A stretch of DNA of 64,000 bases, taken from assembly GCF_001565895.1 (NCBI RefSeq), contig NZ_LSNE01000006.1, forward strand, positions 1 through 64,000, in the 5' to 3' direction. Shown here piece by piece: positions 53,772 through 64,000 of this stretch. A model generated the notes under the pieces. That model did no database searches, was not told the origin of the DNA, and saw only the letters and a list, made by a program, of their open reading frames with translations. The stretch is from Paraglaciecola hydrolytica (lineage in GTDB: Bacteria; Pseudomonadota; Gammaproteobacteria; Enterobacterales; Alteromonadaceae). Every line of letters begins with the position of its first letter. The first letter of the stretch is position 1. Both the position numbers and the translations under genes were made by a program.

Positions 53772-53928
53772 ATCCAGCAAAATAGGGAGTTGGTATAAAT
53801 ATTGATGTTGTATTTACTCCCTGTCTTATTCTTAGCGGGCGTTCGCGTTAAAAAATAGACGCTCAAACGCGCAATTTGAGGTTGCTTGGGTATCACTAAA
53901 AATCTTGGTGAAACCAAGATATAGCGAA

Positions 53929-54285
53929 TTACAATACAAGATGTTTGGGAGGAGAGCGGCTGATAATAGTGGTCGAGTCTAGATTGGTATTGTCATTATA
54001 ATCAGTCTGAAAAACCAGAATATAGCTGCCAATAAAAATGGCGTCTCCGGCCTGGAGGATGTAATCACTGTCCAGCGCTTTACCATTAATCTTAGTGCCA
54101 TTGACACCAAGGTTTTGAATGACTCTGTCATCACCAACCGACTTAATAACGGCGTGTTTACGGGACACTTTAGGGTCAGGAATGATCACAACACAATTTG
54201 GGTCGCGACCTAAAAGAAAATCGCTGTCATCCAGTTTAAACGACGCTTGCAATTCATAGTTAGCATACATGTCTAATCGAGCCAT
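53929..54285 (-). CDS. FHA-domain protein
   Basis: A 118-residue protein that is almost only a forkhead-associated domain: LLGRDPNCVVI, SRKHAVI and the loop NLGVNGTKINGK, then a C-terminal tail rich in Ser/Thr (NTNLDSTTIISRSPPKHL). FHA domains bind phosphothreonine peptides, but no Ser/Thr kinase gene is in the window. It is transcribed divergently from the patatin/export genes with 279 bases between them, and I infer that it belongs to that system, for example recognising a phosphorylated partner. AAGGAAA precedes the ATG. Confidence 0.85.
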   Translation of the reverse strand: MARLDMYANYELQASFKLDDSDFLLGRDPNCVVIIPDPKVSRKHAVIKSVGDDRVIQNLGVNGTKINGKALDSDYILQAGDAIFIGSYILVFQTDYNDNTNLDSTTIISRSPPKHLVL

Positions 54286-54564
54286 AACTTTCTATTTCCT
54301 TGTCGAACCCTAATAATAAATTGAATTATAAAATCAATATCTTACCGCTAGGCCAGCGCGCTAAAGGTTTCTCTGTATTGACGCGAGTAGTGTACTGTTT
54401 TGTATGGAATTCGTACAGTGGCTTGTATACAATCGTTCGAGAATCTAAATTAAATGTAAAGTCTGTTGTTATGCTCTGACCAATTGAAACAACTTGGTTT
54501 ATCGCGTTTTGTTGTGTTCGAGAAAAGCAGCTTTCGGTTTTTAAATTGATGGAACGGTAAATAA

Positions 54565-56814
54565 TTGGATACTCTCCCCACAAATGTTACAGCCGATTTG
54601 CGCGCTGGTTCAGTCCAAAGCATTAAACTTAATCAACAGGAACGTCAAATACTGGCTGACTATACGCAACTTAGTTACGTATCTGCCAAAGAATATTTAG
54701 TCACTGAAGGAAACGGCGATAACTGCTTTTATTTGTTGCTCAGTGGCAACATGGTTAAAGAGCAATCTGGCAAAACAATCACGTTGGGGATGTACGAACA
54801 ACTGGAAGTGGGGGAGCTGATCGGTCTATTAAACTTTTTTACTGAGGAAAAACATCTTTCTCCCATTCTTGCCCGTACCGATAGCCAGGTGGCTATTGTC
54901 ACCAGAGAAATTTACGATAGTTTGCTGTCTGAGCAACCCCTGTTGTGGCAAAAGCTACAGAATATTGGTCTGCAGATGATGCGTAAGCATCGGCTATCAA
55001 TCCATCTTGACAAATTATTTGGCCCTTTTGGTGTCATGTTGCCTTTTGTGCTGGCTGATATAGACAATGAGCTGGAGTGGATTACGCTTCCCAGCGGACA
55101 GACCTTGTTCAGTCAGGGGGATTTGGCGGACGGTGCCTACATCCTGGTGGCGGGGCGTCTGCAAATGACAACGACTCTGCTGGACGGCAGGGAAGTCGTC
55201 AATAATGCCATTCTGGCCGGTGAAACAATAGGTGAAACAGCACTCTTAACTAACCAGCCGCAATCTCACACTGTGTATGCGGTAAGAGATAGCGAGTTAG
55301 TTAAATTGTCAAACTTCTGTTTTGAACTGATGTTAAAGAGAAACACCCAGGCCATACACAATATTGCTCAGATACTGGGCAAACGTCTCAGTAATTTACC
55401 GTTCGAAAAAGGTGCCTCGAAAGCGCCAGTACGCTGTATCAGTTTGCTGCCTGCAAATGACAGTATTCGACTCTCAGATTTTGCCCAACAGTTATGTAAA
55501 TCCCTTGCTGAATATGGTTCTACCCGGCATCTAAGCAGCGACATTGTCAATACGGAGCTCTCTGCTGAGGGTATTGCTCAATGTCAGGAAAACGAAGCGT
55601 CTAGTTTACGATTGGTGGAGTGGCTGCATTTACAGGAAGATAATTGCCAGTTTTTAGTTTATCAGTCTGACCAGCAATGGACTGACTGGAGTGCCAGATG
55701 TGTTAGGCAAACCGATCAGGTGATTGTTGTCGCTGACGCAAATGCACAAGCCGATTTATCATCCTTGGCGCCGCATTTATCTGGTGAGCGACAACGCTGG
55801 AGTTTAGTCTTGTTGCATAATCACGATACCGACCGACCCAGAAACACGGCGGCGTGGTTTTCTTCTGTTGCACCTGATGCTATTTATCATGTGCGTCAGC
55901 AACATGCCGCAGATTTAGCAAGATTAACGAGGATCTTGTCAGGTAATGCCATTAGTCTGGTTTTGGGTGGAGGTGGAGCCCGCGGCTTTGCTCACTTGGG
56001 GGTTATAAAAGCCATGGAAGAATTAAATATCCCCATTGATATGGTGTGTGGCAGCAGTATGGGGGCTCCCATTGCAGGCATTATTGCCCAAGGCGCTAAT
56101 GCAGATGAAGTTATACGCCGTGCTAAAAAGGCTTATCACAAAATTATCGATTTCACTTTTCCTTTGGTCTCGCTTATTGCCGGCAAACGTATTAGCCAAA
56201 CGATAAAAGAGCAAACTCAGGGATGGGATATTGAAGATTACTGGTTACCATTTTTTTGTGTATCAACTAATTTGACAACCGCTTTACCTGTTGTTCATTA
56301 CCGTGGGGACTCCTGGCTGGCTATTCGCAGCAGTGTCTCTATTCCAGGTGTTTTACCACCCGTGCCTCATCAAGGAGATTTGCTGGTCGATGGGGGTGTA
56401 TTAAACAATTTGCCAGTGGATATCATGCGTGAAATTAACCCTTTTGGCGTAGTTATCGCTGTCGATGTCGCGCCTCCCCTCGGACTCAAAGCAAAATCTG
56501 ACTATGGCACCGAGTTGTCTGGCTGGGGACTGTTAACCCAACGTTTTTTTCCGTGGTTAAAAGCACCTTCTGTACCGAGTATAGGCTCAACCATTATGCA
56601 GGCCATGGTGGCTGGGTCAGCCCTCAAACGTCAGCAAATAATTGACCAACAACAAGCTGATCTTTATCTTAATATTCATGTGAAGGGAGTAGGTATGCTG
56701 CAATTTGAAGCACAGGCGAAAGCAACTCAGATTGGCTATGAGGCCAGTAGAGAAAGGCTTAAGAGCTATTTTGAGACTGCCAGCGCCAAGACTACAATCA
56801 AGCAGGAGGGGTAA
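54565..56814 (+). CDS. Patatin-like phospholipase with cyclic-nucleotide-binding domains
   Basis: A 749-residue protein of the NTE/RssA type. Two cyclic-nucleotide-binding-like domains span about 30-145 (YLVTEGNGDNCFYLLLSGNM) and 155-270 (LFSQGDLADGAYILVAGRLQ, then ETIGETALLTNQPQSHTVYA). A central part (about 285-455) resembles a degenerate P-loop/response-like domain. The patatin domain at about 463-640 has the oxyanion loop GGGGARG (468-474), GSSMG with nucleophile Ser498, and DGG with catalytic Asp609. It should cleave phospholipid acyl chains at the inner membrane. TTG start at 54565, with GGAA ten bases upstream; no ATG is available nearby. The DevB gene starts two bases after its stop codon. 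Confidence 0.88.
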   Translation: MDTLPTNVTADLRAGSVQSIKLNQQERQILADYTQLSYVSAKEYLVTEGNGDNCFYLLLSGNMVKEQSGKTITLGMYEQLEVGELIGLLNFFTEEKHLSPILARTDSQVAIVTREIYDSLLSEQPLLWQKLQNIGLQMMRKHRLSIHLDKLFGPFGVMLPFVLADIDNELEWITLPSGQTLFSQGDLADGAYILVAGRLQMTTTLLDGREVVNNAILAGETIGETALLTNQPQSHTVYAVRDSELVKLSNFCFELMLKRNTQAIHNIAQILGKRLSNLPFEKGASKAPVRCISLLPANDSIRLSDFAQQLCKSLAEYGSTRHLSSDIVNTELSAEGIAQCQENEASSLRLVEWLHLQEDNCQFLVYQSDQQWTDWSARCVRQTDQVIVVADANAQADLSSLAPHLSGERQRWSLVLLHNHDTDRPRNTAAWFSSVAPDAIYHVRQQHAADLARLTRILSGNAISLVLGGGGARGFAHLGVIKAMEELNIPIDMVCGSSMGAPIAGIIAQGANADEVIRRAKKAYHKIIDFTFPLVSLIAGKRISQTIKEQTQGWDIEDYWLPFFCVSTNLTTALPVVHYRGDSWLAIRSSVSIPGVLPPVPHQGDLLVDGGVLNNLPVDIMREINPFGVVIAVDVAPPLGLKAKSDYGTELSGWGLLTQRFFPWLKAPSVPSIGSTIMQAMVAGSALKRQQIIDQQQADLYLNIHVKGVGMLQFEAQAKATQIGYEASRERLKSYFETASAKTTIKQEG

Positions 56815-56815
56815 T

Positions 56816-57733
56816 ATGAAGTCTCCATTGCCCGTGATGATGTTTGGCATTTTTAGCCTATTCAGTCATCTACTGCTCGCCAGTGATATTACCGCAGTAG
56901 CTGCTCTTGGCAGAATTGAACCTGAAAATGGCATTATCATCATCAGCGCGTCCTCTACTCCAGATTCAACCGCAGGCTCATTGATTGCTAAATTGCACGT
57001 AGCCGAAGGAGACAGTGTAAGCGCTGGTCAGTTACTCGCTGAAACTGACTCAGCCCCGGTCGCTCGGGCACTCATTATCGAGACTGAAAAGGAACTTGAA
57101 TTTGCACAGCGTCAATTTGACGCGGATAACAGTATTGCTGACGCCGCGTGTGTGCAGGCAGATACCGCTAAAAGTGAAGCTTTGAGGCGTGAAACATTAC
57201 TCAACAAAGGGCTGGCTTCTGTTGAAGAAGTTGAGCAGACGCAAGGTTTTGCCAAATCACTTAGAGCATCTTGTCAGTCGGCTCGGGTATCAGCTACCGC
57301 AGGTGAGATGGCGATTGAAGTAGCGAGAGCCAGGTTAGAACGACGTAAAGCCGAATATCAACGGAAAATGATTTATTCGCCCATTAACGGCTTGGTTTTA
57401 CAGGTGAATGCTTACCCAGGAGAGTTTGTGCAAGCGGATGGTATTTTAGAATTGGCGGCAGTAGAAAAAATGTATGCGGTGGCTGAAATATATGAAACAG
57501 ATATAGGACGTGTTCATGTAGGGCAGAAAGCGACAGTCAGCAGTGCTGCTTTAAGTGAAAAACTGAGCGGAAAAGTGACCTATATTCATCCCAAAGTGAA
57601 AAAACATGATGCAATAGGCACCGATCCTGCTGCACGTAAGGATGCCCGAATAATTGAAGTTGATGTGCTGTTAGACAAGCCGCAAGCGGTAAGGCGATTA
57701 ACCAACTTACAAGTTGAAATTGTGCTTGAGTAA
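56816..57733 (+). CDS. devB: DevB-family exporter adaptor
   Basis: A 305-residue membrane fusion protein with signal peptide (MMFGIFSLFSHLLLAS). The DevB pattern is visible: AALGRIEPENGIIIISAS, lipoyl half GSLIAKLHVAEGDSVSAGQL, coiled coil at about 85-185, second half IYSPINGLVLQVNAYPGEFV, and barrel with IYETDIGRVHVGQKATVSSA. In cyanobacteria DevB forms the adaptor of the DevBCA/TolC glycolipid exporter. AGGAGGGG lies right before ATG 56816, so translation is coupled to the patatin gene. A TolC channel would be supplied from elsewhere. Confidence 0.85.
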   Translation: MKSPLPVMMFGIFSLFSHLLLASDITAVAALGRIEPENGIIIISASSTPDSTAGSLIAKLHVAEGDSVSAGQLLAETDSAPVARALIIETEKELEFAQRQFDADNSIADAACVQADTAKSEALRRETLLNKGLASVEEVEQTQGFAKSLRASCQSARVSATAGEMAIEVARARLERRKAEYQRKMIYSPINGLVLQVNAYPGEFVQADGILELAAVEKMYAVAEIYETDIGRVHVGQKATVSSAALSEKLSGKVTYIHPKVKKHDAIGTDPAARKDARIIEVDVLLDKPQAVRRLTNLQVEIVLE

Positions 57734-57741
57734 TCAATAAG

Positions 57742-58899
57742 ATGATCTCAATGCAGACTAAAGTTGCGTGGCTGCAGCTAAAACATCGGCCATTGCGGCT
57801 TATCGTAGCCTTGTGTGGTATCGGCTTTGCGGTATTGCTGATCCTCATGCAATTGGGTTTTCGCTCAGCTTTGTTTGAAAGTGCGGTGCGCTTTCACGAA
57901 AAGCTAAATTACGATATTGCGCTGTTTAGTCCCGACAGTGTGTTTATTGTGCGTCCTCAGGCTTTTTCGCAGCGCCGCCTATATCAAGCACTGTCATTAA
58001 AAGAAGTGGAACAGGTGATGCCGATTAACATCTTCCCGGGTGTCTGGAAGAATCCTTGGAACCATGGCAGCCGCAGCATCAATACTTTGGGTTTTGAGCC
58101 TGAAGATGCCATATTCGATAACCCCGAGTTCAATCAATTGCGCCCTTTGCTTAAAGCCCGCGATGCGATGATTTTTGACTCAGCTTCACGTCCTGAATTT
58201 GGCCCAGTTAAAGAAGCTATGAGCCATAACGAGGTGTTAGAGACTGAAATAAACAATCGACAAATTAACATTGTTGGTTTGTATAAAATGGGCACATCGT
58301 TTGGTTTGGATGGCAGCGTATTTATGAGTACCGACAATTGGCATCGTTTATTTCCGGAACGTTCCCGGGAAGACATCGAGCTTGGTTTAATTAAGCTTAA
58401 ACCAGGTGCCGACGCTAAGATTGTACGAGATCAACTCAGAGAATATCTGCCCGGTGACGTATTGGTTATGACAAAAAAAGACTTTGTAGCAAGAGAGACT
58501 GCTTATTGGAATTCAGCCACACCGATAGGCTACATTTTTGCTTTTGGGGCAATAATGGGTTTTGTTGTAGGCGCGATAATTGTTTATCAGATATTGTTTG
58601 CGGGTGTATCGGAGCATCTAAGTGAGTATGCTACCTTGCGTGCTATGGGGTATTCCAGCACATTTGTATCGGGTATCGTGGTGCAACAGGCTGTGTTATT
58701 GGGGGCGCTTGGTTATATTCCGGGCGTAGTGCTGGTCATGGTGCTGTACTCTGTAGCAGCGGACGCAACCAATTTACCGCTTTACTTAACGACAGACAGA
58801 GCAATATTTGTCTTTGCATTAACCATGATAATGTGTGCAATTTCAGCCTTGTTGAGCGTTAGGAAAGTGGCGCGTCTCGATCCTGCCGAGGTGTTTTGA
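57742..58899 (+). CDS. devC: DevC-family ABC permease
   Basis: A 385-residue permease. N-terminal TM at about 20-40 (LRLIVALCGIGFAVLLILMQ) followed by FRSALFESAVRFHEKLNYDI, a hallmark of DevC; a periplasmic domain at about 60-255; then three C-terminal TMs (about 265-380) of the FtsX type, ending KVARLDPAEVF. It forms the membrane part of the exporter with DevA and DevB. Its TGA overlaps the next gene's ATG by one base. Confidence 0.88.
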   Translation: MISMQTKVAWLQLKHRPLRLIVALCGIGFAVLLILMQLGFRSALFESAVRFHEKLNYDIALFSPDSVFIVRPQAFSQRRLYQALSLKEVEQVMPINIFPGVWKNPWNHGSRSINTLGFEPEDAIFDNPEFNQLRPLLKARDAMIFDSASRPEFGPVKEAMSHNEVLETEINNRQINIVGLYKMGTSFGLDGSVFMSTDNWHRLFPERSREDIELGLIKLKPGADAKIVRDQLREYLPGDVLVMTKKDFVARETAYWNSATPIGYIFAFGAIMGFVVGAIIVYQILFAGVSEHLSEYATLRAMGYSSTFVSGIVVQQAVLLGALGYIPGVVLVMVLYSVAADATNLPLYLTTDRAIFVFALTMIMCAISALLSVRKVARLDPAEVF

Positions 58900-60191
58900 T
58901 GTCTAGTGATATTTCAATCAGTGTAAAAAACTTAGACTTCTTTTTTGGCAGCGGTGAGCTTAAAAAACAAATACTATTTGATATCAGTACCGATATTCGG
59001 GCTGGTGAAATTGTCATTGTTACTGGCCCTTCTGGCTCAGGAAAAACCACGCTTTTAACCATCGTTAGCGCATTACGATCGGTCAATACCGGCAGTGTGC
59101 AGATATTCGGCAAGGAATTATGCGGTGCAAAAAGCAAAGATTTGGAGCAGGTCCGCAAAAATATTGGCTTCATTTTTCAGCAACATAACCTCATCGCCGC
59201 GCTAACAGCCTTGCAAAATGTGGTGCTCGGTATACGTATTAGCGGCAAATATAAAGGCAGCCAGATAGAGCAAAGAGCTATCGAATATTTGCACCTTGTT
59301 GGCTTAGGCGAACGTATCCATTACCTTCCTGAGCAATTATCAGGTGGGCAAAAACAACGTGTCGCGATTGCCAGAGCAATGGCCGCTGAGCCGAAGATTT
59401 TGATGGCCGATGAACCTACAGCTTCTTTGGATAAACAGTCGGGCCGTGATGTGGTTGACCAAATGAAAAGTATGGCGAAAGAGCAAGGTTCAACCATTCT
59501 ATTGGTGACACATGACAACCGTATCCTTGATGTTGCTGACCGAATTATCTATTTAGAAGATGGGCAAATTGCCAGTTTTAATGAAGCAGTTATCGACAGC
59601 AGTCAACATATGATGAAAGTGGTCGCAGATACGCCATCAGAGCGACCAAATAACCAAAATGAAAGTGATTTTGACTCTCAATATTTTATGGTTGATCTTT
59701 CATTACAATCACAGCGGATTCTGGCACTTAAAAGTAAGATTAATCCTATTGCGTTTAAAGGTGTACTGACAAACGCGCTAACTGATTTTACCACGCGAGC
59801 ATGCGAAATATTCGATACCCATGGATTTGTTTTATACCTGGCGAATGAGCAGGCATGGAGTGTGACTCCGCTTGGAAGTTCCAGCGGTCAGCAAATTGGC
59901 ACTTATCCCAATCAGGGCGGTGTTGTTAATGCCGTAAGAGATTTGAATAAGTCACTGTTGATTACCAACTCCTTTGGAGATAAACGAATAGAGCCAGCTT
60001 TAGATAAACAGTTTGACGAAGCACAAATGATTATGGCGGTGCCGTTAAGGCGACGCAGCGGAGAGGTTTTTGCTGTTGTTCAATGCCGACGTTTGAGTAA
60101 TAAAGCGGTTTTTACCGAGCGGGACTTAAAATTATTTGAGCTATTTTGCAGTAGTATCACCGGTTTGTTGGAAGCCTATTCTAAGTTATAA
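58899..60191 (+). CDS. devA: DevA-family ABC ATPase with C-terminal GAF domain
   Basis: A 430-residue fusion. Residues 1-230 are a complete ABC ATPase: Walker A GPSGSGKTT, Q-loop IFQQHNLIAAL, signature LSGGQKQRVAIARAM, Walker B ILMADEPTASLD and the switch His in LVTHDN. A linker of about 35 residues (SERPNNQNESDFDSQ) leads to a GAF-like domain at about 265-430, with LTDFTTRACEIFDTHGFVLY, GTYPNQGGVVNAVRD, DEAQMIMAVPLRRRSGEVFA and a closing helix LFELFCSSITGLLEAY. Usual DevA proteins end at about 240 residues. The GAF part should bind a small molecule or dimerise and so gate export. ATG 58899 overlaps the DevC stop. Confidence 0.88.
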   Translation: MSSDISISVKNLDFFFGSGELKKQILFDISTDIRAGEIVIVTGPSGSGKTTLLTIVSALRSVNTGSVQIFGKELCGAKSKDLEQVRKNIGFIFQQHNLIAALTALQNVVLGIRISGKYKGSQIEQRAIEYLHLVGLGERIHYLPEQLSGGQKQRVAIARAMAAEPKILMADEPTASLDKQSGRDVVDQMKSMAKEQGSTILLVTHDNRILDVADRIIYLEDGQIASFNEAVIDSSQHMMKVVADTPSERPNNQNESDFDSQYFMVDLSLQSQRILALKSKINPIAFKGVLTNALTDFTTRACEIFDTHGFVLYLANEQAWSVTPLGSSSGQQIGTYPNQGGVVNAVRDLNKSLLITNSFGDKRIEPALDKQFDEAQMIMAVPLRRRSGEVFAVVQCRRLSNKAVFTERDLKLFELFCSSITGLLEAYSKL

Positions 60192-60294
60192 GATAGCCCA
60201 GTCACTTTTATAAAAATGTATTTAATATATTGAGTTAGGTGTAAAAGTTGATTTTATTTTCACTTTGTTAGCACGGCTCTTACTCGGCAAAGAC

Positions 60295-60930
60295 TTAAGC
60301 CAAGTCACAGCGCCATGAAAATTGAGAATGTAAAAAACCGTATCCTGCACTTGCTTCATTTGCCAGTGCGATACGTTGGTATCCTCCTTGTTGACTCACC
60401 ATCAAATCATCGTATGACATATTCATTGCCCCTTGAATAAAGGTGTTACGTGCGTGGTCATTATTTTCAGTTGTGCTACAAAGAATGCGCGATTTAATGG
60501 TGCGCTTGTTATTGTTCTTAAATTTAACTTCCAGAAACTGGGTATTGGTGTCTAGGTAGGTTTGTTGTCTTACTTTATAGCGATTAAGTTTGCCATTGTG
60601 ATGGTCATAGTAAAAACGTAGATTATTGGTATCAAAATACTGATTGTAATAGCGTGAAATACGCTGGTTATTGATTTCTAAAACGCTGTAATAGTTTTGC
60701 AACCGAGCTAATAACCCAGGTAAAAATGCTCTTGGCAGCAAAAACTTCACATCAACTCTATCCATTAAATTGGCTTTATCTAAATCGGCCAAGTGATGAC
60801 TTTGAAAACGTTCTAAGCTCGCGTTTAGATCTTGTTCTTGGTTTTTATTATCACTGTATTTTGCACCTCCTGTGCCAAACCATTGTTTTTGATAGCCTTT
60901 ATATGGCTCAATAATTTGTGCGTTTAACAT
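60295..60930 (-). CDS. VTC domain protein, C-terminally altered
   Basis: A 211-residue protein of the VTC (polyphosphate polymerase-like, CYTH-related) family: MDRVDVKFLLPRAFL, SRYYNQYFDTNNLRFYYDHH, LNRYKVRQQTYLDTNTQFLE and VKFKNNNKRTIKSR give the tunnel-lining basic and acidic residues. The usual end of the family, after YQRIALAN (normally a hydrophobic strand with an acidic ligand), is replaced by AGYGFLHSQFSWRCDLA, encoded by the 55-base repeat that recurs at 63884. The protein is therefore probably truncated and swapped at its end; activity is doubtful. ATG 60930 preferred; ATG 60960 is in frame. It follows the CotH gene, its frequent partner. Confidence 0.7.
   Translation of the reverse strand: MLNAQIIEPYKGYQKQWFGTGGAKYSDNKNQEQDLNASLERFQSHHLADLDKANLMDRVDVKFLLPRAFLPGLLARLQNYYSVLEINNQRISRYYNQYFDTNNLRFYYDHHNGKLNRYKVRQQTYLDTNTQFLEVKFKNNNKRTIKSRILCSTTENNDHARNTFIQGAMNMSYDDLMVSQQGGYQRIALANEASAGYGFLHSQFSWRCDLA
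60297..60351 (+). repeat. 55-base direct repeat, copy 1
   Basis: Pairs with 63884-63938 in the same orientation with 3 mismatches in 55. It overlaps the last ~18 codons of the VTC gene on the other strand. The two copies bracket the VTC-CotH pair. Confidence 0.85.
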
Positions 60931-61036
60931 GATGACTCTCTTATTATTAGCTAAAATCATATGGGTTCTTTTGGCCTAAAGCTGATTTAAACACTTGGTT
61001 GAACCTGCCAAAAACTAGGCCAAAAGACACCATCAA

Positions 61037-63607
61037 TTAATTTCTACAAAATCCATTTCCGTTACCACTTGAGGCAATTTCACCACTGAGTTGCTGGTTC
61101 ATATTGGCTACACGGTAGGACATAAAAGAAGTCAGTCCGTAAAACCTTGAAACAGTAGAGTGTTGGTTTTGTTGATACTGTGAATAGCTATAAAAAGCAG
61201 TGGGATCATTCGCCACGTGCTCACCGATTAGTTTATCTATTTCAGCTATTCGCGCGGCAAAGTTGGTGCTCGTCAACGGACCATCAATCAACTGATTTAG
61301 GTAAGCGTGGTAAGTATTGAGATTGTCACTATCGGCAAACACCTTGGCAATGAGGGGCTTGTCGGCTAATGCACCATCTGTTGGTTCATCGATATACAAT
61401 TCGCGGATATCAGCGCGATTGCAACCCATGCTGAATGAACCAAATGATTCATTGAGATCCCATGGCAACATAGAAAATACGCCGTCTTGTTCGTAGATAT
61501 AATAATTATGAGCGAGAGAGCCGTGGTAGCTGTCTAAGTTTGATAGAGCAACACTAACCGCCATGTAGCGCAGTACAGAGTCTTGATCGATAACACTCAA
61601 AGCATCACCAAACTCCATTGCACTGACAAAATTTATAAAGGCGCCGTTATCTGAGCTATCTTCATTGGTTTTTAACTCGACACCTGAATAACGGCTAAAG
61701 TCGTCGCTAATCCATTGTAAATCGCTACCAGTGCCATCGGGCTTGTATAAGTCACCCTGGGTATTGCTAAAATGTTTAGCAATAAACTCTTCATTAACGA
61801 ACTCGACTAAGAGGTACAAGCCTTTCAATTCATCGTTTACATACACGTTGACATAAGCATGCTCGGGGGTGGCTACGCCCATTTCTTCCAGTAATTCATA
61901 AGCAATATACTCACGCATATAAGAGGGATCGTTATACATATTGTTTAAAACGAATTTCTTCATACCCAATAACTTTTGCCCACTGACATATTCATTAACG
62001 TCAATATTGAAGCTATATCGTTCGCTGGTGGAACGGGCAACGGCAGATAAACTGGAATTTCCCTTAGTACGAATAGCGACAGAATCTAAGGTAATACCTT
62101 TGTAGGTCACTGAAGTAGGGTGATATTCTTCATCAATAGCGTTGTCGAGTAGGTCTTGCCACTCTGTGTTATCAATCGTAAAGTAAATAGATTCAACTAC
62201 TGCTTTATTGTAAACACTAGGTAGAACATTGGAGGAGCCAAGGCTAGGCTCTAGGGTGTTTTTGGCCCAGCCACCATCAGTTGTTAAGCCGTAGCTGTAA
62301 CCTGCGGATACATCGCTAGCTTGCCAGTCTATATAATCAACGGTTTCGCCATTTTTAATCAAGCTTAGCTCGTCGTCTTTGCCTAATTTAAATGGTACGT
62401 AATAGCTGCCAGGATCTTCATCCACGGCATATATCACCACAAAAGCTCCCGCCGCCAAGATAATTTCTGGCAGGGTGACTGGCTCTATATCATTACTACT
62501 ATCAATGATTTGATAATCGCTAAGTAAGATGGGGTTAACACTGTTGTTGTAAAGCTCAAACCAATCATTACCCTCTGCAACATGAGAAGCAACGAGCTCA
62601 TTGATAACTAAAGGGCCATGAGTAGCGAGCGAATTAGCCATAGCAGGTGAAGGTATTAAGGTGGCAAGGGCATCACTACCGTCGGGGTAACGACCATAGC
62701 TATAACCAATGAGTGCTTCACCGTTTTTCCAACTTAATTGGTCGATTAAATCCTCAGCTAAAAATAAGCTAACTTGGTCCGAGGAGCCCAATTTAAAACC
62801 GACTGTTGCTAAGTTCTCAACCTCATCCGTGGTGGCGTACACACGATAAAACGTACCGGCGGCTAGGGTGATATCGGGCAGTGCAAACAGTTCGCCGTCT
62901 TCATCGCTAACCAAATAATCGCCTAAAAATACGGCGTTATCACCCGCTGCATACAGCTCTATCCAGTCGTAACCGTCATCACTTGCTTTGGCCACAATTT
63001 CATTAATTCGTAATTCGGCATCATTGTTGGTGATAGTGTCTGTGACTAATACTTCATCGCTTAATTGGGTATTAGCGGCACCCGGTGTAGGCAACATGGT
63101 TCGCGCCGTGCCTGTGCCATCAAGGTACAAACCAAAACTGTACCCTTGCTGTGCGTCGCCATCTTGCCAATCTAATTGGTCAATTTGCACCGCGTTTTCA
63201 TACAGAGTCACTGCGTCATCTGAGCCTAATTTAAATGTCACATAATAAGCATCGCTAGGTGGAGTATCTTCTTCATCTATCGCTTGAATAACGATGAATT
63301 GACCTGTGTTTAATGAAATGGCAGGAAGTGTTTGTGCGACATGCTCAGCGTTATCATCAACTATGCTGTAAATCGACAGGTCTGGAATATCTGCTAGGGC
63401 ATAGAGCTCTATCCAATCTGCTCCACCATCAACCGCCGAAGCGACAATTTCATTTATCTTTAAACTGCTAGAGGATGGGGTTTCGGTAGACGGAGTTTCA
63501 GTCGACACTTCGTCAGTAGAGGCCGTGTTTTCACTCGCTCCGCCACAGCTAAAAAGTAGAGTAGTGCAGAATACTAGGGAAAGTGCGGTTAATACTTTAT
63601 TTTTCAT
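61037..63607 (-). CDS. Lipoprotein with lamin-tail domains and CotH kinase domain
   Basis: An 856-residue lipoprotein with signal ending LLFSC. Three lamin-tail domains (LTD) in tandem occupy about 45-460; each starts with a (K/R/V)INE(I/L)VA motif and DWIELY or DWFELY, and ends with a GYSxGLY/GRY turn. A CotH kinase domain follows from about 470: VESIYFTIDNTEWQDLLDNA, AIRTKGNSSL, FVLNNMYNDPSYMREYIAYE, YKPDG and MLPWDLNESFG with the Asp used in CotH catalysis. CotH proteins are secreted protein kinases in spores; here the surface-exposed protein may act on other exported proteins. ATG 63607 is chosen, giving a clean signal. A VTC gene follows. Confidence 0.85.
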   Translation of the reverse strand: MKNKVLTALSLVFCTTLLFSCGGASENTASTDEVSTETPSTETPSSSSLKINEIVASAVDGGADWIELYALADIPDLSIYSIVDDNAEHVAQTLPAISLNTGQFIVIQAIDEEDTPPSDAYYVTFKLGSDDAVTLYENAVQIDQLDWQDGDAQQGYSFGLYLDGTGTARTMLPTPGAANTQLSDEVLVTDTITNNDAELRINEIVAKASDDGYDWIELYAAGDNAVFLGDYLVSDEDGELFALPDITLAAGTFYRVYATTDEVENLATVGFKLGSSDQVSLFLAEDLIDQLSWKNGEALIGYSYGRYPDGSDALATLIPSPAMANSLATHGPLVINELVASHVAEGNDWFELYNNSVNPILLSDYQIIDSSNDIEPVTLPEIILAAGAFVVIYAVDEDPGSYYVPFKLGKDDELSLIKNGETVDYIDWQASDVSAGYSYGLTTDGGWAKNTLEPSLGSSNVLPSVYNKAVVESIYFTIDNTEWQDLLDNAIDEEYHPTSVTYKGITLDSVAIRTKGNSSLSAVARSTSERYSFNIDVNEYVSGQKLLGMKKFVLNNMYNDPSYMREYIAYELLEEMGVATPEHAYVNVYVNDELKGLYLLVEFVNEEFIAKHFSNTQGDLYKPDGTGSDLQWISDDFSRYSGVELKTNEDSSDNGAFINFVSAMEFGDALSVIDQDSVLRYMAVSVALSNLDSYHGSLAHNYYIYEQDGVFSMLPWDLNESFGSFSMGCNRADIRELYIDEPTDGALADKPLIAKVFADSDNLNTYHAYLNQLIDGPLTSTNFAARIAEIDKLIGEHVANDPTAFYSYSQYQQNQHSTVSRFYGLTSFMSYRVANMNQQLSGEIASSGNGNGFCRN

Positions 63608-64000
63608 ATTAAATCTCAAGTTCAGTAAATGATTACTGTCACTATATGAAATAAAAGTGTGATAAAAGTGCAATAAATGTGCAATTTGTGTGGAGAATTA
63701 CATTGTTGTTCGATTAGTCTTTAAAACTAAGGCAGAGGAGATATTTTATCGGCTAACTGAGCGTCTACGATTAACTGAAAACAGCACATAGTCAGTGACA
63801 AAAGTTAATGTGCTTGGCTTATTTCCACTGGCATAAGGACGACTGCCATGGCTTTATTTATTGTTGTGTGTTGTTAGCCCATCAAGCCAAGTCACAACGC
63901 CATGAAAATTGAGAATGTAAAAACCCATATCCTGCACTGTAAACGCGGGATTTTTTTTGCAGCTTAAATTTAACTGGAGTGGCTTGCACCTTAACCCAAC
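63608..64000. other. Intergenic region at the right edge
   Basis: About 390 bases: the promoter region of the CotH gene, then the second copy of the 55-base repeat (63884-63938), then GTAAACGCGGGA and a T-run (TTTTTTTT). No credible gene. The repeat's other-strand reading gives MGFYILNFHGVVTWLD, out of frame with the homologous end of the VTC protein. Confidence 0.5.
63884..63938 (+). repeat. 55-base direct repeat, copy 2
   Basis: See 60297-60351. Same orientation, 3 mismatches, about 3.6 kb apart, flanking the CotH and VTC genes. Confidence 0.85.

Follow-up and report, generated by a model that had tools for sequence, protein, structure and literature searches.

Many gammaproteobacteria encode a lipid-cutting enzyme together with a lipid-type exporter, and this pairing is no accident. 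The exporter is of the DevBCA type, with a GAF domain fused to its ATPase DevA, and the enzyme is an NTE-type lipase. We give an even chance to the reading, drawn from sequence, that these four genes form a conserved unit for handling membrane lipid at either face of the inner membrane. On that same reading the unit would be gated by cyclic nucleotides (cNMP) in most of its carriers, and the copy described here would be a derived one. This copy lies in a stretch of 64,000 nucleotides of Paraglaciecola hydrolytica, here called the window. Among the papers listed by literature searches limited to open-licence PMC content, none describes such a gene combination.

The original prediction placed five genes in one locus, and ORFs, domain profiles and conservation counts agree that they are real (Table 1). 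As it had stated, four of these follow each other closely on one strand: the lipase gene and devB are 1 nt apart, devB and devC 8 nt, and devC and devA overlap by 4 nt. Judged by this spacing, they are one tight predicted operon. The FHA gene is divergent, with 279 nt between it and the lipase gene.

Table 1 Features of the locus in the Paraglaciecola hydrolytica window.
Feature	Coordinates	Strand	Basis
FHA-domain protein, 118 aa, stand-alone	53929..54285	-	Pfam FHA E=2e-14; divergent from operon
FHA-lipase intergenic region, divergent, presumed regulatory	54286..54564		Coordinates from ORFs
NTE-type lipase, 749 aa	54565..56814	+	Pfam; two CNB, NTE P-loop-like, patatin
devB, membrane fusion protein (HlyD/MacA type)	56816..57733	+	TIGR02971 194.7 bits, cut-off 129
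devC, MacB/FtsX-type permease	57742..58899	+	TIGR01185 433.5 bits, cut-off 290.35
devA-GAF, whole ORF	58896..60191	+	ORF
devA, ATPase part	58896..59580	+	TIGR02982 324.8 bits, cut-off 295.8
devA, C-terminal helix and GAF domain, NKFDE lost	59658..60191	+	Pfam GAF 1.3e-7; alignment, model, motif tables

The lipase start codon is TTG. Loci L010 and L011 have the same codon at the same place, and L024 has ATG. For devB the start is the ATG at 56816; the program-listed ORF opens earlier, at 56705. A consensus promoter scan of 53800-60400 gave 13 sites against a shuffle mean of 12.1, which is no excess, and a terminator scan stayed at chance level. The block does not stand out in G+C either, at 44.5% versus 43.0% for the window.

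DevA matches are rare in the two sets searched first, with 2 of 147 genomes of the window's own family at 1e-60 and 2 of 398 phylum-wide at 1e-70. Relatives were therefore taken from a named genome collection, where most of their records are metagenome bins. In the best 80 of 166 relatives there are 40 loci with DevA-GAF, and 36 of them have an NTE gene next to the dev genes. None of 39 loci with a GAF-less DevA shows an NTE match at 1e-4, in stretches of some 3 to 21 kb. That last count leaves out L051, where DevA is cut by the contig end, and L060, which has a GAF. The adjacent NTE comes after devA in 27 of the 36 loci and before devB in 9, and in 22 of those 27 a possible NTE start codon overlaps the devA stop.

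In the order sample the NTE is adjacent in 30 of 31 loci. This sample shares loci with the first, as L152 and L019 at 100% identity show, and the counts cannot be treated as independent. Beside other NTEs, at 27 places in 299 phylum genomes with flanks of up to about 1.5 kb, no dev genes were found. Co-occurrence of the patatin/cNMP gene with DevA-GAF across genomes had been proposed as a check. The idea that the two are only occasionally adjacent clearly fails, and lipase, DevBCA and DevA-GAF stand as a conserved unit.

DevA-GAF occurs without an adjacent NTE in L030, L047 and L060, and the genomes of L030 and L060 had no NTE match at 1e-10. An NTE next to the devA of L047 was considered and rejected, given that the two are on contigs of different length (59450 and 49619) and that L047 does not contain the end of the retrieved stretch. 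ORFs were also clustered around 41 loci, and the clusters in 5 or more loci, with several smaller ones, were annotated. No cluster but the dev genes and the NTE is widespread, and antisense ORFs make up some of the clusters. Other clusters in at least 5 loci are a response regulator, a histidine kinase, a tRNA dihydrouridine synthase, ETF-QO, an AMP-binding enzyme and one antisense cluster.

The system belongs among the known kinds DevBCA and NTE, and its nearest working analogue is YbbAP-TesA. A complete DevBCA exporter had been claimed, and this holds: DevB, DevC and DevA each exceed their NCBIfam cut-off, a likeness to the cyanobacterial DevBCA-TolC/HgdD glycolipid exporter. Unlike that exporter, this one has a C-terminal GAF on DevA and an NTE lipase in the operon. 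In YbbAP-TesA, too, a MacB-family ABC transporter and a lipid hydrolase are encoded together (PMC12646458). TesA is periplasmic, whereas the CNB-patatin lipase here has no evident signal peptide; also different here are the TolC-type adaptor and the sensor domain on the ATPase.

The ATPase part of DevA has a Walker A (GPSGSGKTT), a signature (LSGGQ), a Walker B and an H-loop, with residues that are invariant or nearly so in a 40-row alignment. The window DevC belongs to a clade of 37 DevC rows with 100/100 support, where 36 are from DevA-GAF loci and the other is L051, whose devA is cut by the contig end. None of the scanned locus genes is a TolC-type partner; 11 OEP (PF02321) stretches are found elsewhere in the genome.

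In the lipase, Pfam finds two cNMP_binding stretches (7.9e-29), NTE_Ploop PF24179 (5.9e-26) and patatin (2.4e-27). The better-scoring CNB covers residues 174-259, the NTE P-loop-like part 290-433 and patatin 465-620, and the same order is present in relative L019. The original prediction had not named the NTE_Ploop domain. The catalytic Ser498 (GxSxG) and Asp609 (DGx) are invariant in a 32-row alignment (the window and 31 of 33 tree lipases, with L036 and L044 left out), and the pair is kept in every aligned row, including a separate 34-row display. NTE/PNPLA6-PNPLA7 has the same CNB, NTE P-loop-like and patatin parts with a Ser/Asp dyad. Different here is that the lipase is operonic with an ABC exporter, and that the window CNB sites lack Arg.

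The phospholipase was said to have two nucleotide-sensor domains. The fold is there, but the cNMP-binding residues are not intact in the window copy. CNB2 keeps Glu224, with the phosphate-cassette Arg replaced by Gln233, and CNB1, aligned by eye, also has no Arg at this position. Both Glu and Arg are kept in 30 of 30 relatives, versus 0 of 4 Paraglaciecola lipases for the CNB2 Arg.

The C-terminal part of DevA was predicted to be a GAF domain. In sequence it is: PF01590 matches residues 294-421 with 32.7 bits over a cut-off of 22.4, and the family GAF profile finds CyaB2 (1ykd, 2.7e-59) and PDE GAF domains. The fold check by structure was less clear. The predicted model is alpha/beta, with block pLDDT of 59-88 over residues 261-431, but among the 50 Foldseek matches listed for DevA there are ABC transporter chains only, and no separate GAF match.

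For relative L019, the best PDB match of the GAF is the CyaB2 adenylate cyclase GAF pair 1ykd (5e-38), followed by PDE2A and PDE5. The window GAF matches only 4mcw (1.2e-4) and PDE5 (0.013), and that of L010 has no match at 0.1. The NKFDE motif is intact in 35 of 36 readable DevA-GAF rows from outside Paraglaciecola and in 0 of the 4 Paraglaciecola rows, window included; this count covers all 40 loci, with L048 (broken devA) showing no motif columns. In the order sample 30 of 31 loci have the pattern, the exception being L171, with Ala for Glu. NKFDE residues make no contact with the ligand, according to passages of PMC11977230.

By profile and motif, the relatives' DevA GAF is thus of the phosphodiesterase/CyaB2 cyclic-nucleotide kind, akin to the tandem cNMP-binding GAFs of CyaB2 and PDE2/5/6/10. 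Unlike those, it is a single GAF on an ABC ATPase, and the window GAF is without NKFDE. With NKFDE and the CNB Arg kept as counted above, both ATPase and lipase look cNMP-gated in most carriers. That in relatives both proteins have what look like cNMP sensors was the main point absent from the original prediction.

What it did propose were two ligand inputs, cNMP-like and GAF. For the window copy this does not hold up, as both sites are eroded. The erosion of both is one event in one genus. It probably means that the controlling signal has changed in Paraglaciecola, and that the window copy is a derived, cNMP-blind form. At a DevC identity of 0.62-0.70, Paraglaciecola GAF identity has a mean of 0.23 (maximum 0.27), versus 0.57 (minimum 0.45) for other pairs. 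The GAF alignment has the window and 34 of 40 loci (L017, L026, L028, L036, L044 and L048 are absent).

In only 3 of 40 loci (L014, L038 and L044, two of which are close relatives), the 5 kb or so upstream of the module contain a gene for a class III nucleotide cyclase. These nearby cyclases carry a response-regulator domain. In the window, none of the 9 proteins scanned is a cyclase. Two Planctomycetes loci have a CNB fused to DevA, and it seems that DevA gains nucleotide-sensor domains more than once.

The history of the Paraglaciecola lipase appears to differ from that of its transporter, which suggests that a second NTE was recruited to the locus. The lipase tree has the window and 33 of the 36 adjacent lipases; L014, L017 and L020 are left out, being cut by contig ends, and the partial L015 is included. 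One 100/100 clade, without Paraglaciecola, unites the other 30 module lipases. Grouping the Paraglaciecola lipases with their DevC sisters is rejected (p=0.0002), as is the same grouping with two sets picked after the lipase tree was seen (p=2e-14 and p=3e-11). The DevC sisters alone are not rejected (p=0.10), nor is a single clade of all module NTEs (p=0.077). Long branches may mislead here, and this doubt is the greater because the GAF, apparently orthologous, also evolves fast.

The FHA protein reads GRD, SRKH and NGT in translation. We take GR, SxxH and NG to be the binding-loop residues of FHA phosphothreonine readers, and the protein carries this motif as a putative reader. FHA had been counted as part of the system. 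It is indeed present and divergent at the window locus, but it lies beside the module in Paraglaciecola only. Of 22 genomes of the genus, the 4 that have DevA-GAF are also the 4 that have FHA, and in the other 37 DevA-GAF loci, some on short contigs, FHA has no tblastn match at 1e-4.

The gene could have come into Paraglaciecola along with the module by chance, without playing any part in it. This is a real possibility, if on balance a doubtful one: a single transfer of all five genes as a block could explain the shared 4 genomes, but FHA adjoins the module in all four at 75-82% identity, and seven outer neighbours of the window copy have no match beside the module in L010, L011 and L024. Four genomes of the genus (L146-L149) were searched around the FKBP that is the window's upstream neighbour, with no FHA, lipase or VTC homologue beside it, so a clean empty site was not demonstrated.

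The sequences show the composition of the unit, its conservation, its catalytic residues and its sensor motifs. As proposed, the conserved unit would work as follows. DevC, DevA and DevB, with a TolC-type channel encoded elsewhere, would extrude a lipid-like molecule from the periplasmic leaflet. On the cytoplasmic side, the lipase would deacylate lipids of the pool that the pump draws on. In most carriers, cAMP or cGMP would bind to the lipase CNB and to the GAF that each DevA of the pair carries, and one messenger would license pump and lipase together. In Paraglaciecola the cNMP sites have decayed, a second NTE was apparently recruited, and the divergent FHA gene joined. Control of the unit by cNMP is probably absent there, and a phosphothreonine signal read through FHA may have taken its place. 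A simple hand-over from lipase to pump is argued against by the MacB-type mechanism: the accepted view of these transporters is that their substrates do not cross the inner membrane through them (PMC5985334, in excerpt), and a cytosolic-side product would not enter the pump directly.

An unlikely alternative is lysolipid disposal as in YbbAP-TesA, with toxic lysophospholipids cleared out of the outer leaflet by the pump and out of the inner by the lipase, and export to the outside being secondary. YbbAP-TesA has a type VII (MacB-family) ABC transporter whose partner lipid hydrolase is encoded at the same place (PMC12646458), the YbbAP ATPase is among the listed Foldseek matches of the DevA model, and PNPLA6/NTE hydrolyses PC and lysoPC (PMC9025805, in excerpt). 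Genes for electron-transfer flavoprotein, ETF-ubiquinone oxidoreductase and an AMP-binding acyl/acetyl-CoA synthetase-like enzyme recur near loci of some Lysobacterales (two flank clusters were counted, each present at 5 of 41 loci), which would fit the use of freed fatty acids. However, DevB is a TolC-type adaptor by family, and the available text of PMC12646458 describes none for YbbAP. The lipase N-terminus is also hydrophilic by eye, and so not evidently periplasmic like TesA.

The model of the original prediction had the exporter move a glycolipid or other special envelope lipid, like cyanobacterial DevBCA, and the lipase trim a precursor in the cytoplasm. This now looks distinctly improbable. 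The Dev proteins do fit their families, DevBCA-HgdD transports heterocyst glycolipids (PMC6161253, in excerpt), and a wax ester synthase/diacylglycerol acyltransferase gene is near one locus (L046), but no glycolipid-synthesis gene is found among the neighbour clusters in at least 5 loci.

A cyclic-nucleotide-triggered defence, with a CNB-patatin effector of Pycsar/CBASS type and the transporter as accessory, is very improbable indeed: PADLOC matches the CNB part to TIR effectors (2.5e-15) and PycTIR (1.8e-13), the patatin part to phospholipase effectors (5.2e-8) and DevA to the MADS ATPase mad3 (2.8e-32), and three relatives have the cyclase nearby, but in the window proteins these matches span single, widespread domains, the scanned window proteins include no cyclase, and the nearby cyclases have a response-regulator domain as signalling proteins do.

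Within the preferred reading of a conserved lipid-handling unit, a more specific and tentative one falls somewhat short of an even chance. Here the unit would be a cyclic-nucleotide-gated ABC exporter, with one messenger read by two unrelated sensor folds, the PDE-type GAF of the ATPase and the CNB of the lipase, switching hydrolysis and extrusion together. Paraglaciecola would represent a natural variant that has lost its gating, has recruited a new lipase and now responds to a phospho-signal through FHA. The sensor gains of DevA in Planctomycetes and the cyclase near the module in three relatives count toward this cNMP-gated exporter.

If true, a domain on the ATPase of an ABC exporter, shared with the lipase of its operon, would tie cAMP/cGMP signalling directly to lipid traffic in the Gram-negative envelope. 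For bacterial NTE-type lipases, relatives of human PNPLA6, it would supply a candidate partner, and for their cyclic-nucleotide domains a role that can be put to the test. With its sensor sites gone, the Paraglaciecola form would offer a natural comparison.

The FHA, lipase, DevB, DevC and DevA-GAF proteins of this locus can be assigned to their families firmly on sequence. The NTE-type lipase, devB, devC and devA-GAF genes form a compact operon in that order, with spacings of 1 nt and 8 nt and a 4-nt overlap; the FHA gene is divergent. The genome is 5.2 Mb; among the best 80 of 166 matches, the named relatives closest to it at this locus are Paraglaciecola. The original prediction described the lipase as cNMP/patatin. 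Both parts are borne out, but the description is incomplete: an NTE-family P-loop-like domain sits between them, and the lipase is therefore a bacterial relative of neuropathy target esterase. Its predicted model (mean pLDDT 76.3, pTM 0.70) matches the patatin-like PlpD and the CNB (cNMP_binding) domains of PKA regulatory subunits. For DevA-GAF the model is of moderate quality (mean pLDDT 73.9, pTM 0.49). Outside the module, 3' of devA, a VTC-domain gene lies beside one for a CotH-kinase protein with three lamin-tail-domain matches.

A DevA-GAF scan kept the best 80 of 166 loci, where the match extends into the GAF domain in 40 (L010-L048 and L060; L-numbers are homologous loci from other genomes, the majority of these relatives being metagenome bins). 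Of these 40, 36 have an NTE gene adjoining the dev genes; it follows devA in 27 and precedes devB in 9. In 22/27 of the loci where devA comes first, its stop is overlapped by a putative lipase start codon. DevA-GAF matches at 1e-90 occur in 31 of 299 genomes from the order to which L026's genome belongs. In this sample, which overlaps the 40-locus set, an NTE is adjacent in 30 of 31 loci read. This means that lipase and DevA-GAF exporter, proposed earlier as one system, are a recurrent pairing and not an occasional adjacency. Among 39 loci whose DevA lacks the GAF, a search of the locus DNA at 1e-4 found no NTE. NTE-type proteins (E<=1e-50) are present in 27/299 phylum genomes and devC (E<=1e-70) in 5/398; dev genes were sought in the flanks (up to about 1.5 kb) of 27 NTE places outside the window, and none had them. 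Two large stand-alone NTE proteins (L107, L117) are encoded next to a gene for an MFS transporter (Pfam MFS_1), another NTE-transporter neighbourhood.

In L026, which has no adjacent NTE, devA is at a contig end, and a second devA-GAF of the same genome does have one. L151 and L026 are two DevA-GAF copies in one Lysobacterales genome, 83% identical over 271 residues compared. In the Acidobacteriota, L047 has its NTE on another contig and a genome search for L060 found none; NKFDE, a motif of cNMP-binding GAF domains, is intact in both although neither has an adjacent NTE. The devB and devC of L047 are on the opposite strand. In L048 the devA-GAF is split over two frames, with the break near residue 204, while the adjacent devC stretch and NTE are open; L182 comes from a contig of equal length.

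By its sequence, the GAF of the relatives' DevA is not a generic one. The L019 GAF finds adenylate cyclase CyaB2 (1ykd) at 5e-38 as well as the PDE2A and PDE5 GAFs, and the family profile matches CyaB2/PDE GAFs more strongly (1ykd at 2.7e-59). According to PMC4411481 and PMC11977230, NKFDE sets apart cNMP-binding GAFs. Of 36 readable non-Paraglaciecola rows, 35 keep it intact (30/31 in a smaller alignment), and it is found in 30/31 loci of the order sample. The sole exception among those rows is L030, which also has no adjacent NTE, nor any NTE match at 1e-10 in its genome. In the lipase CNB, the phosphate-cassette Glu and Arg are retained in 30/30 relatives. Each of the operon's two enzymes thus carries a domain with cNMP hallmarks, and the two domains have unrelated folds. 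Elsewhere, DevA of two Planctomycetes (L053, L078) is fused to a C-terminal CNB with the cassette GE...PRSA/PRTA, by sequence another cNMP-type sensor on DevA, the same theme outside the module. In gammaproteobacterial L055 and L087, near the module clade, the C-terminal domain is TerB-like and not GAF, the L087 match being just under the Pfam cut-off.

The Paraglaciecola copies differ. NKFDE is lost in 4/4 of their DevA-GAF proteins, window included, and the CNB2 (second CNB) arginine is Gln in 4/4 lipases. Of the two predicted ligand inputs, cNMP-like and GAF, the domains are present, with cNMP hallmarks in relatives, but the Paraglaciecola sites do not support them. The erosion of both sites is one lineage event. 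Over 31 rows, at DevC identity 0.62-0.70, GAF identity averages 0.23 (max 0.27) for Paraglaciecola versus others and 0.57 (min 0.45) among others; for the patatin part it is 0.38-0.39 versus 0.50-0.53. The transporter itself looks ordinary, its DevC nesting in a starred clade of 11 module rows.

The sequences suggest that the Paraglaciecola lipase has a different history from DevC. The lipase tree places the 30 remaining module lipases in a single clade (100/100), with Paraglaciecola outside. A tree that joins it to seven of its DevC relatives is rejected (p=0.0002), while a clade of those seven without it is compatible with the data (p=0.10). Two further sets including Paraglaciecola, picked after the lipase tree was known, are rejected more strongly (p=2e-14, p=3e-11). 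The best phylum-sample matches of the window lipase are stand-alone lipases of one family, among them L091 with two CNB domains. Probably a second NTE was recruited to the locus in Paraglaciecola; the alternative is rate acceleration. A single clade of all 34 module lipases is not rejected (p=0.077).

The FHA gene, a putative phosphopeptide input, was found beside the module in Paraglaciecola only. FHA (E<=1e-10) is present in 4 of 22 genus genomes, and these are also the 4 that have DevA-GAF (E<=1e-60); FHA adjoins the module in the window, L010, L011 and L024 (the other Paraglaciecola copies); no match was found in 37 non-Paraglaciecola DevA-GAF loci. For seven genes that flank the window copy further out, no match was found beside the module in L010, L011 or L024. 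L010 has an RND pump pair after devA, and L011 and L024 share these ORF clusters. Since the FHA adjacency is kept while the outer neighbours differ, the unit common to Paraglaciecola is five genes.

Apart from dev genes and NTE, no ORF cluster exceeds 9/41 loci. Clusters in at least 5 loci are a response regulator, a histidine kinase, tRNA dihydrouridine synthase, ETF-ubiquinone oxidoreductase, an AMP-binding acyl/acetyl-CoA synthetase-like enzyme and one antisense cluster. Electron-transfer flavoprotein (ETF) subunits are also near the module in L022 and L031. The ETF, oxidoreductase and AMP-binding neighbours fit fatty-acid use, though they may be plain Lysobacterales synteny. In L046 a wax ester synthase/diacylglycerol acyltransferase gene is near the module, separated from the lipase by a gene of the AMP-binding cluster. 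In L014, L038 and L044 a gene for a response-regulator/class III nucleotide cyclase lies on the opposite strand, about 0.3 to 3.5 kb upstream of devB, and is a possible source of the module's cyclic nucleotide. The L014 cyclase domain at 1e-5 matches only these three of 80 loci, which amount to two lineages because L038 and L044 are closely related, at 88% over the cyclase.

Coordinates of genes at the window locus and at homologous loci
Locus	Coordinates	Strand	Feature
window	53929-54285		FHA gene
window	54565-56814		NTE-type lipase
window	60295-63673	-	VTC-domain and CotH-kinase genes
L014	3500-4633	-	response regulator/class III cyclase
L038	3961-6018	-	response regulator/class III cyclase
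L044	5647-7668	-	response regulator/class III cyclase
L046	2-3928		wax ester synthase region
L048	10001-11304		split devA-GAF
L053	4461-5540		DevA-CNB
L078	10001-11065		DevA-CNB
L055	10001-11107		DevA, TerB-like
L087	7844-8896		DevA, TerB-like
L107	3325-4533		NTE-MFS neighbourhood
L117	3418-4563		NTE-MFS neighbourhood

As a MacB-family tripartite exporter, DevBCA belongs to a class of pumps that pass ATPase motion to the periplasm and are held not to move substrate across the inner membrane (PMC5985334). The lipase, acting in the cytosol, would therefore not simply hand its product to the pump. Most likely, we infer, lipase and exporter handle one lipid pool on both faces of the inner membrane. 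The lipase would hydrolyse lipid at the inner side, and DevBCA would extrude lipid from the outer leaflet via a TolC-type channel from another locus; the genome does have OEP genes elsewhere. The nearest worked example is YbbAP-TesA (PMC12646458), which likewise pairs a MacB-family transporter with a lipid hydrolase. In most carriers a cyclic nucleotide would license both lipase and exporter; in Paraglaciecola this input has probably lapsed.
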